From Comamonadaceae bacterium (GTDB lineage Bacteria > Pseudomonadota > Gammaproteobacteria > Burkholderiales > Burkholderiaceae_C), in NCBI GenBank assembly GCA_013297925.1, contig JAAFJC010000001.1, forward strand, positions 1 to 64,000: a stretch of 64,000 nucleotides of DNA. The letters run 5' to 3'. Position numbers and translations under genes: made by a program. Shown piece after piece: positions 13,721 through 59,782 of the stretch. Within the stretch, counting starts at the first letter, position 1; each line of letters opens with the position of its first letter. The notes under the pieces are model-generated. The model made no database searches, was not told the origin of the DNA, and saw only the letters and a program-made list of their open reading frames with translations.

Positions 13721-13803
13721 TATCGACATTGATTACGTGTAAACTTTGCCCATCGGGACTCACGGCCTCCCGAATCTTCTTGAGGAAGTTTGAGACGATA
13801 GAC

Positions 13804-13860
13804 GGTGTCCCGTCCAAGTGCTGGTCAGCCTGATTGCTCAGGCTATTATTCTTGGACACC
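13804..13860 (+). other. Structured leader ahead of the rhodanese-chrA genes
   Basis: GTCCAAG (13812-13818) pairs with CTTGGAC (13851-13857). GGT/ACC extends the stem at its base, and it encloses the perfect hairpin AGCCTGA-TTGC-TCAGGCT (13827-13844). The structure ends 3 bp before the proposed start codon, so it could limit ribosome access. I cannot name an RNA family for it. Confidence 0.45.
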
Positions 13861-57178: not shown

Positions 57179-57979
57179 ATGCTTGCCAAACGTATCATCC
57201 CCTGCCTCGACGTAACCGGTGGCCGCGTCGTCAAAGGCGTGAATTTCGTGGAGCTGCGCGATGCCGGCGATCCGGTGGAAATCGCCGCGCGCTACAACGA
57301 GCAGGGCGCCGATGAGCTCACCTTCCTAGACATCACCGCCACCAGCGATGGCCGCGATTTGATCTTGCCGATCATCGAAGCCGTTGCTTCTCAGGTGTTC
57401 ATCCCACTCACCGTGGGCGGCGGTGTGCGCACGGTCGATGACGTGCGCCGCTTGCTCAATGCGGGGGCGGACAAAACCTCGTTCAACTCTGCGGCGATTG
57501 CCAATCCGCAAGTGATTTTTGAGGCGTCGCAGAAATACGGCTCGCAATGTATCGTGGTGGCGATTGATGCGAAAAAGCGCAATGCGGAAGATGAAGCGCG
57601 CTTAGATGCCAATGGCAAAGCAGTAGGCCCTGGCTGGGATGTGTACAGCCACGGTGGCCGCAAGAATACGGGGCTGGATGCCGTGCAATGGGCGACGCGC
57701 ATGGCAAGCCAAGGCGCAGGCGAGATTTTGCTCACCAGCATGGATAAAGACGGCACAAAATCTGGCTTTGATTTGGCTTTGACGCGCGCTGTGAGCGATG
57801 CAGTGTCAGTGCCCGTGATTGCTTCAGGCGGTGTCGGCAGCTTGGCGCATTTGGCCGATGGTATTCAGACTGGTGGGGCAGATGCCGTGCTCGCGGCCAG
57901 CATCTTCCACTATGGCGAATTCACGGTGCAGCAAGCCAAGGCGTTTATGGCCGAGCGCGGTATTCCTGTGAGGGTCTGA
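57179..57979 (+). CDS. hisF: Imidazole glycerol phosphate synthase cyclase subunit
   Basis: The product is 266 aa, a TIM barrel. The catalytic Asp residues lie in [18 protein letters not shown] and [10 protein letters not shown]; the phosphate site [13 protein letters not shown] is near the C-terminus. It makes imidazole glycerol phosphate and AICAR with HisH. The rest of the his operon is not next to it in this window. No Shine-Dalgarno is visible because a family A repeat abuts the ATG. Confidence 0.95.
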
Positions 57980-57997
57980 TTTCTAAGCGTTTCGGCA

Positions 57998-58043
57998 AGT
58001 GGCCGGCGTATTTATTGCGCGAGCCGCTACTGTTTTGATAGTG
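57998..58043 (+). repeat. Family A repeat downstream of hisF
   Basis: GGCCGGCGTATTTATTGCGC is followed by GAGCCGCTACTGTTTTGATAG. It begins 18 bp after the hisF stop, so hisF is flanked by two copies in the same orientation. Confidence 0.75.
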
Positions 58044-58050
58044 GATGTTG

Positions 58051-58351
58051 GCGTGCTGAAGAGTTCTCTTTGGAAAGAGCGGCTGAGAGGTAAAGGTATT
58101 TGCGCGCCTTCATGGTCGAGTACGACAAATCAGTCGGGCAAATGCCCTTAACTCTCGGCCTGTTAGCGACACAAAAGGTCTTCGCTCGCACTTGGTCGCG
58201 TTATACAAAACTGGCCTGTGTGAGGGCTCTTCGGGTTGGCGATTTGTTGGACGCAGGGTTAGGAAACGCATCGCGTTTCCATCATCGTTTCAGGCGACGG
58301 GTGTCGCCTAACTCCCGAGGTAAACCATGAGCCGGCCCGGAGAGCCCTCAC
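58051..58351 (+). ncRNA. Candidate structured RNA of unknown family between hisF and radA
   Basis: This is the only gap over 300 bp in the window, and it is full of pairings. CTCTT-TGGA-AAGAG is at 58066-58079. A 22-bp near-continuous stem pairs 58081-58103 with 58138-58160 (GGCTGAGAG/CTCTCGGCC and TAAAGGTATTTGC/GCAAATGCCCTTA) and is capped by GTCG-AGTA-CGAC. A 16-bp stem pairs 58220-58235 with 58336-58351 (one G-U pair). Inside it, GGAAACGC/GCGTTTCC (58262-58280) and AGGCGAC/GTCGCCT (58292-58309) compete with GTTAGG/CCTAAC (58258-58263 with 58307-58312). A weak 76-codon frame (58100-58330) crosses it and is probably not coding. Strand is unknown; a degenerate mobile element is the main alternative. 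Confidence 0.4.
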
Positions 58352-58384
58352 GCAAGCCAAAGCCCCACCAACAAAAGCAAGATT

Positions 58385-59782
58385 TCAAGAAGACCGCTGC
58401 AATTCCCGCATCAACTCCATCGCCTGCTCCACGCGCTCCACGGCATGAATCGTCATCCCTTCAAAATCTTTCATTTGCGATTTTTTCGGGGCGTTGGCTT
58501 TGGGGATGATGGCGGTGGAAAAGCCTAACTTTGCCGCTTCGCGCAAACGCTCCTGGCCGCGCGGGGCGGGACGCACTTCGCCGGCTAGGCCGACTTCGCC
58601 GAAGGCGATGAAGCCTTTGGGCAGAGGTTTGCCGCGCAGGCTGCTCGTGATACTCAGCATCACGGCCAAATCGGCCGCGGGCTCAGTGATGCGGACGCCG
58701 CCTACTGCATTCACGAACACATCTTGATCGGCGCAGGCGATGCCGGCATGGCGGTGGAGCACCGCCAGCAGCATGGCGAGGCGATCACGGTCTAGGCCGA
58801 CGGACAAGCGGCGCGGCGACGGCCCGCCGCCATCGACCAAGGCTTGGATTTCTACCAGCATCGGGCGCGTACCCTCCAGCGTGACCATCACGCAGCTGCC
58901 GGGCACGGGCTCGCTGTGTTGGCTGAGAAAAATCGCACTCGGGTTGCTCACGCCCTTCAAGCCCTGCTGCGTCATGGCGAACACGCCGATTTCATTCACT
59001 GCGCCGAAGCGATTTTTGATCGCGCGCACGAGGCGAAAATTGGAATGCGTATCGCCCTCGAAATAGAGTACGGTATCGACCATGTGCTCCAGCACACGCG
59101 GCCCGGCGAGTGCGCCTTCTTTCGTGACGTGGCCAACCAACACAATTGCCGTGCCGCTGCTTTTGGCAAAGCGCGTGAGATGCGCCGCGCATTCGCGCAC
59201 CTGCGCCACCGAACCGGGGGCGCTGGTGAGCTGCTCGGAATACACCGTTTGGATGGAGTCAATCACCGCGATACGGGGCTGCTGATCGGCGAGCGTGGAG
59301 ATGATCTTCTCCAGCTGCGTTTCGGCTTGGACTTGCACTTGGCTGTTATCAAGCCCCAAACGTCTCGCCCTAAGTGCGACTTGTGCCGAGCTTTCTTCAC
59401 CTGTCACATATAGAGCCGATGTGCCCGCGCGTTGTAGCGAATCCAGCGCTTGAAGCAACAGCGTTGATTTGCCAATCCCCGGATCGCCACCGATCAACAC
59501 CACGCCACCTTCCACAATGCCGCCGCCGAGTACGCGATCAAGCTCCTCATGGCCAGTGGGCGTGCGTTCAACATCCGAGGCTTCAATCTCGCCGAGCTTT
59601 TGCACAGGGGAGCTGCCGGCAAGCGATAGAGGTGCAGCAAACCGGTTTTTCCCCGTGCCGACGCTTTCGGCCACGCCTTCAATCAAGGTGTTCCAAGCCC
59701 CACAGCTGGGGCACTTGCCCAGCCATTTGGCGGAGCTGCCGCCGCATTCGGTGCACGTGAAAAGTGTTTTGTCTTTGGCCAT
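58385..59782 (-). CDS. radA: DNA repair protein RadA
   Basis: The product is 465 aa. The N-terminal zinc finger is CTECGGSSAKWLGKCPSCGAW. Walker A is GGDPGIGKSTLL near residue 98, and the RadA-specific KNRFG motif follows. The C-terminal Lon-like domain contains FIAFGEVGLAGEVRPAPRG. RadA drives branch migration in recombination. It stands alone, converging on hisF across the structured gap. Confidence 0.95.
   Translation of the reverse strand: MAKDKTLFTCTECGGSSAKWLGKCPSCGAWNTLIEGVAESVGTGKNRFAAPLSLAGSSPVQKLGEIEASDVERTPTGHEELDRVLGGGIVEGGVVLIGGDPGIGKSTLLLQALDSLQRAGTSALYVTGEESSAQVALRARRLGLDNSQVQVQAETQLEKIISTLADQQPRIAVIDSIQTVYSEQLTSAPGSVAQVRECAAHLTRFAKSSGTAIVLVGHVTKEGALAGPRVLEHMVDTVLYFEGDTHSNFRLVRAIKNRFGAVNEIGVFAMTQQGLKGVSNPSAIFLSQHSEPVPGSCVMVTLEGTRPMLVEIQALVDGGGPSPRRLSVGLDRDRLAMLLAVLHRHAGIACADQDVFVNAVGGVRITEPAADLAVMLSITSSLRGKPLPKGFIAFGEVGLAGEVRPAPRGQERLREAAKLGFSTAIIPKANAPKKSQMKDFEGMTIHAVERVEQAMELMRELQRSS

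Follow-up and report, generated by a model that had tools for sequence, protein, structure and literature searches.

A dispersed family of paired hairpins with a conserved tip in Comamonadaceae

The gap between hisF and radA in a Comamonadaceae genome (GCA_013297925.1, contig JAAFJC010000001.1) raises the question of what a densely folded stretch of some 300 bp between two genes may be. It lies in a window of 64,000 nucleotides, by which we mean the whole stretch of DNA analysed, and is flanked by hisF (+ strand, ending at 57979) and radA (- strand, low end at 58385), named from an earlier reading and from the translations. The two genes lie on separate contigs or about 90 kb apart in the two genomes of the same genus that were searched. 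The initial annotation took the gap for a selected RNA at this locus, because of its long stems with G-U pairs.

Fold and parts of the window copy

The dense folding was confirmed. On the + strand, 58051-58371 folds with -149 kcal/mol (z -7.0), and on the - strand the z value is -5.9; 0 of 100 shuffles were equal in either case. The fold holds two long stems, 58081-58118/58123-58160 (38-nt arms, 74% complementary) and 58212-58240/58331-58359 (29-nt arms, 83% complementary), and two small hairpins, the first with arms 58262-58269/58273-58280 and the second with arms AGGCGAC (58292-58298) and GTCGCCT (58303-58309). The element as a whole reaches about 58360-58378, and its parts are as follows.

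58080..58161, - strand (the wobble-rich strand over the family): hairpin B, with standard tip; model R1 matches 58080-58160 (-) and 58081-58161 (+), covariation in 11 copies
58108..58132, + strand: hairpin B tip, CTTCATGGTCGAGTACGACAAATCA, with paired changes in its apical stem (GTCG/CGAC); found by pattern at 2 mismatches
58162..58210, no strand: linker between the hairpins, lying between the R1 and R2 matches
58211..58360, + strand: hairpin C, inverted relative to B, with enlarged head; model R2, 152.2 bits, 20/49 pairs changed on both sides in some copy
58240..58250, + strand: 5' side of the C tip core, CGATTTGTTGG, read from the sequence; reverse complement of the AAATCG side of the tip
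58262..58280, + strand: first small hairpin of the C head (helix 5, 3/8 pairs changed on both sides)
58292..58309, + strand: second small hairpin of the C head (helix 6, 2/7 pairs changed on both sides)
58325..58333, + strand: 3' side of the C tip core, CCATGAGCC, read from the sequence; reverse complement of the CTCATGG side of the tip
57973..58043, no strand: module A, a separate short repeat often found beside the element and outside the hairpins; matches to this stretch alone in G000, G001 and G002

Read backwards, hairpin C in the window gives CTCATGG..CCAACAAATCG, a stretch of about 75 nt taking the place of the apical hairpin. Both small hairpins of this head are present in 23 of the 25 C hairpins aligned from G000 and G001, the first being absent from L279 and L005. 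The pairing of GTTAGG (58258-58263) with CCTAAC (58307-58312), which was noted initially as competing with the small hairpins, does exist in the window copy. Over eight homologues, however, it pairs 80.4% of the cells and is equalled by 55 of 500 shuffles; the fold that has the two small hairpins pairs 97.4%, a value that 0 of 500 shuffles attain. Thus the alternative fold is real in the window copy and is not a conserved feature. The resemblance of GTTAGG/CCTAAC to attC core sites led us to consider an integron attC site, which was set aside on the order of such sites.

The view that the gap matches no known RNA family was borne out by comparison with Rfam: at the gathering cut-off no family matches the element in the window, nor were any found at 18 loci under a permissive search, where matches to miRNA families stayed below their own cut-offs and were taken as look-alikes. 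The sole Rfam match of the window at gathering score is a chrB-b RNA at 13753-13824 (+), with 39.7 bits. Open reading frames of 50-76 aa run across the hairpins, and a coding reading was set aside because the stems covary as pairs.

Dispersal, pairing and age

The initial annotation suggested looking for the same element at other loci, and its presence there was decisive for reading the gap as a repeat. The own genome holds 13 matches to 58040-58360, including the window copy, the others being partial and 68-90% identical. With the same query, 3 of 60 genomes gave a match: the own genome and two genus mates. In the copy alignments, modules B and C occur in mosaic combinations and the short module A is separate. 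The window gap is one copy of a dispersed repeat, and the idea of an RNA specific to this locus found no support; the gap belongs to a real, structured and apparently undescribed repeat family. Five short tip strings gave no relevant match in a text search of the literature library used, where the one paper returned, PMC4521451, is concerned with a human enzyme in yeast. Module A (GCCGGCGTATTTATTGCGCG..GCTATTG-type elsewhere) was found at 22 or more further places in the three genomes of the genus, often adjoining the hairpin element.

Covariance models were built from 11 B copies (R1) and 8 C copies (R2). The B model gave 18 rows in G000, 62 in G090 and 20 in G106, and the C model 26 in G000 and 37 in G001; these rows outnumber the copies, since both strands of one place are often listed. 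Neither model gave rows in G003 and G004, both tip-less genomes. The pattern of the B apex was found in 70 stretches of named genomes, 68 of them with beta-proteobacterial titles (among others Rhodoferax lacus, Limnohabitans, Malikia granosa, Hylemonella, Variovorax sp. PCZ-1 and Brachymonas sp. CRU_1_3). The remaining two are from a Chloroflexi MAG, a match missed by the B profile, and a 'Chitinophaga' MAG. The latter contig, titled Chitinophaga pinensis, carries the element and flanks that are the same as in family genome G077 (L088, L114) and is probably misassigned.

Within the bacterial family, a census with two mismatches allowed detected the B tip in 31 of 399 genomes and 14 of 141 genera, the reversed-pattern control giving 0 in every row. 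In an order-wide sample with at most one mismatch, 3 of 399 genomes had the tip, all three among the 12 own-family genomes drawn, so that 0 of the 387 genomes outside the family had it. Degenerate tips escape the tip expression, as do C-type heads, which were scored apart. An origin from phages is ruled against by the 0 tip matches among viral contigs.

The order of the hairpins is convergent. Among the tip pairs listed, 32 are convergent (two of these repeat another record), with the members 105-303 nt apart, and no divergent pair occurs within 350 nt. In G090, 28 tip pairs lie at 153-155 nt, with a central stem-loop in the copies inspected, and the C hairpins of G001 are paired convergently, with their starts about 300 nt from each other. 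Single hairpins show a random orientation towards the neighbouring genes (29 against 28), and pairs occupy 11 convergent, 19 tandem and 4 divergent gaps; these counts rest on gene calls by a crude ORF script, which allowed 93 of the 127 tip clusters to be assigned. Certain copies have long resided in gene leaders, for example before nrdR-like and pyrC-like starts, names that were assigned by reading the protein starts. In three different MAGs (L048, L065, L070), a tip hairpin follows the same glmS-like gene at 62-64 nt.

Persistence at orthologous sites was followed in 17 stretches fetched from G106, G209, G346 and G284, of which 13 fall into six orthologous sets with flanks 75-91% identical; the remaining four (L215, L218, L219 and L225) found no counterpart among the others. 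Eight comparisons, which cover seven sites and include one from the window's genus, show the hairpins to be 89.7% identical with 4 gap columns, against 76.6% and 364 gap columns for the rest of the gap. An exception is L214/L227, where the hairpins are less conserved than the rest (82.5 against 86.4%). As counted on the fold of one member per comparison, with L216 entered twice, 329 pairs are unchanged; one-sided changes kept pairing in 28 cases and broke it in 11, two-sided changes kept it in 26 and broke it in none, and 2 pairs fall in gaps. A tip hairpin or pair is also found at ten loci (L022, L028, L046, L066, L067, L075, L079, L089, L094, L110) in one gene gap, between genes that we take to be an aldehyde dehydrogenase gene and a DUF779-like gene. 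The loci belong to several species, and the gap may be an old position or else a hot spot.

Constant tip, variable stem and strand bias

The tip, which can be generalised as CCTCAT-R-NYGG-RGTA-CCRN-AAATCG, is nearly constant across copies, and its apical stem varies in pairs (GTGG/CCAC, CTGG/CCAG and GCGG/CCGC; GTCG/CGAC in the window). Most tip hairpins elsewhere have stems that are unrelated to those of the window, yet these are near-perfect inverted repeats around the same apex, with a median of 27 Watson-Crick pairs (range 13-38) in 156 of 157 scored hairpins. In hairpin B, 15 of 33 pairs changed on both sides among 11 copies, against 4.1 +/- 1.4 in shuffles and at most 2 in slid structures; for hairpin C the numbers are 20 of 49 pairs among 8 copies, 7.7 +/- 1.9 in shuffles and 3-10 in slid structures. 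The earlier proposal of a maintained structure is thus upheld by covariation, with 0 of 500 shuffles as good. That the stems change and stay paired, with a tip that hardly changes, suggests that something reads the hairpin as a single strand.

The wobble pairs are distributed unequally over the two strands. In stem positions 1-22 of 176 out of 177 hairpins, the tip-forward strand has 217 A.C against 35 G.T, so that the opposite strand (CGATTT..ATGAGG) is wobble-rich, with 217 G.T against 35 A.C. The arms were aligned by a method of our own in which G.T and A.C are scored alike. By cluster, 11 of 15 show the bias in the same direction, none against it and 4 are tied, and since the two largest clusters hold 162 of the 176 hairpins, the bias rests on few independent lineages. 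Beyond position 22 it is gone (103 G.T, 81 A.C). An earlier grouping into 46 clusters, covering positions 9-40, gave the same direction more weakly, with 142 against 87 distinct events and 28 clusters for, 11 against and 7 tied. The C-type hairpins, a separate set, agree with the bias, their core strand having 38 G.T and 18 A.C.

In the window, the strand that is wobble-rich across the family is the - strand in hairpin B and the + strand in hairpin C. Window C follows the bias, with 4 G.T and 2 A.C on the core strand, and window B has no lean (1 G.T and 1 A.C in positions 1-22); 7 of the 11 B copies in its genus share a C.A at one stem position of the favoured strand. As the members of a pair are inverted and their favoured strands are opposite, a mutation bias of the replication or transcription strand is not a likely cause. 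The bias is also alike in all gene contexts, with ratios of 48:6 for sense, 43:4 for antisense, 45:11 for convergent and 27:5 for divergent positions among 138 hairpins. From this equality we infer that the folding single strand is not the local mRNA, and would be either ssDNA or a transcript of the element itself. The G-U pairs, initially read as the mark of a selected RNA, indicate folding as a single strand, without pointing to RNA in particular.

Relation to known repeats and possible function

Among the closest known repeats are REPINs and BIMEs, which are inverted doublets of REP sequences whose spacers show compensatory changes and predicted hairpins in ssDNA or mRNA (relevant passages of PMC3116915). 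The present element is REPIN/BIME-like in its scale, intergenic dispersal and inverted pairing, has no gene of its own, and shows the inverted doublet of a conserved motif (32 convergent and 0 divergent pairs, 28 pairs in G090). Its layout is reversed: in REPINs, as described there, the REP at the foot is conserved and the spacer varies, whereas here the tip is constant and the stem and foot vary, and two separate hairpins with their own tips take the place of one. REPs tagged with GTAG have stems of 5-13 bp and those tagged with CGTC stems of 8-9 bp, with an unpaired tag at one end (relevant passages of PMC3733652). According to the same passages, these are likewise palindromic and often inverted dimers, the CGTC type likewise having no known transposase; the stems of the present element are much longer, with the median of 27 pairs given above, and CGTC occurs beside the tip (AAATCGTC). 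Outside the tip, the words most frequent in 172 hairpins are other ones, GCTCGC being present in 28 and GGGGTCAG in 17.

A further group to be considered are the MITE-type repeats such as ERIC, RUP and Correia/NEMIS, which are non-autonomous, intergenic and able to fold. These properties are shared by the present element, but inspection of the G090 and G001 alignments by eye revealed neither of the MITE hallmarks, a shared terminal inverted repeat and a target duplication. Repeats of the ERIC, RUP and Correia/NEMIS types are named in PMC3110155, which in the relevant passages also describes the Beta-proteobacterial repeat element BRE (about 75-91 bp), dispersed in Comamonadaceae including Rhodoferax and Polaromonas. 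BRE is described there as forming tandem arrays in the same direction, in contrast to the convergent pairs found here.

With respect to a partner protein, no gene travelling with the element was found in the neighbourhoods examined. The window element is also no insertion sequence as far as its content goes, since it holds no transposase, its largest ORF being 76 aa, and consists of the hairpin pair throughout. Genes for TctC solute-binding proteins near several copies were taken to reflect an abundant family and not a specific partner, and large ORFs beside pairs in L069, L073 and L081 have ends that, by eye, are not transposase-like. A RAYT-like gene (Y1_Tnp) occurs in 57 of 62 family genomes, mostly as a single copy; it is found in 31 of 31 tip-bearing and 26 of 31 tip-less genomes and does not separate the carriers. 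At least 21 of the 30 RAYT loci fetched (L119-L148) hold GGGGTCAG, 11 of them within an exact flanking inverted repeat. The own RAYT copy (L139) lies between the arms of a perfect 30-nt inverted repeat, which includes GGGGTCAGATCAC.

These RAYT genes bring up the possibility that the copies are ordinary REPINs moved by a RAYT (Y1) transposase and that the tip is merely the REPIN loop. Besides the wide occurrence of RAYT, it is favoured by the RAYT-adjacent repeat GGGGTCAG at the foot of 17 of 172 tip hairpins, mainly at Limnohabitans-type loci. For this reason RAYT may move the element in the genomes concerned. The other 155 hairpins lack GGGGTCAG at the foot, the tip pattern is found at 0 of the 30 RAYT loci and so RAYT is not flanked by the same repeat as in REPINs, and RAYT is common in tip-less genomes, which together make this explanation distinctly improbable for the family. 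Somewhat easier to entertain, and still unlikely, is that the copies are selectively neutral palindromes, old repeats without function whose arms are kept complementary by template switching during replication. Template switching is reported to create and maintain RNA hairpins (PMC8794818), and it accounts for stems that are long and near-perfect yet unlike from copy to copy, and for the double changes seen at orthologous sites. It could mimic part of the ortholog pattern, but hardly the tip or the strand bias, and it leaves the convergent order, the tie of the bias to orientation and the few gaps in the hairpins (4 against 364 gap columns) unexplained.

A small RNA made from each strand of the element, either self-contained or acting in trans, would fit the strong folding and the wobble-rich strand, and a promoter of its own would make the element independent of neighbouring genes. 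We nevertheless consider it quite unlikely, given that no promoter-like site was found in the window copy (57950-58450, sigma-70 consensus only), that Rfam gave no match, and that two inverted copies per element would need two promoters. The position of the window copy between convergent genes and the long residence of some copies in gene leaders would suit a cis-acting mRNA element, such as a bidirectional terminator, a 3'-end stabiliser or a leader element. This is very unlikely in view of the random orientation of single hairpins, the placement of pairs (11 in convergent, 19 in tandem and 4 in divergent gaps) and the strand bias that is equal in sense and antisense positions. Moreover, no T-run follows the stems in 57950-58450, where the single terminator-like site, at 57992-58006, lies outside the hairpins and 0.9 are expected by chance.

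Our preferred reading, to which we give a probability of about 0.5, is that 58080-58360 is a BIME/REPIN-like, non-autonomous element working as a single-stranded hairpin via its tip, more likely as ssDNA than in mRNA. It consists of two long convergent hairpins, each with a variable, compensating stem and a conserved tip core that on the wobble-rich strand reads 5'-CGATTT..apical hairpin..ATGAGG-3'. Each hairpin would function once its own strand becomes single, most probably in the form of ssDNA, and a putative protein of this bacterial family would recognise it through the tip. The element would be copied in trans, as REPINs are thought to be, and afterwards be kept as a structure. In the window copy, the tip of B is of the standard kind, and C carries the head typical of the genus, about 75 nt larger and with two small hairpins. 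Going further, one may tentatively suppose an element kind distinct from REP/RAYT, in which convergent long hairpins act strand-specifically as ssDNA, a dedicated putative protein of this bacterial family recognises the tip core (CGATTT..ATGAGG), any pairing stem will do and an enlarged head can take the place of the apex; this we find doubtful.

The customary REP layout is here turned round, with a constant tip on a variable stem, and the element holds a natural record of the folding strand, in which G.T is tolerated and A.C avoided whatever the direction of the neighbouring gene. If the strand bias holds on a proper tree, ssDNA hairpins that are active in living cells may be recognisable from sequence alone, and the tip would lend itself as bait for the protein that underlies this overlooked family of repeats in freshwater Comamonadaceae.

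A third hairpin type, which lacks the tip and has a GGGCTATC..GATAGCCC stem, replaces B or C at seven loci (L003, L006, L008, L009, L011, L015, L018). At the orthologous site L009 versus L017, one species has this third type and the other species a tip hairpin.
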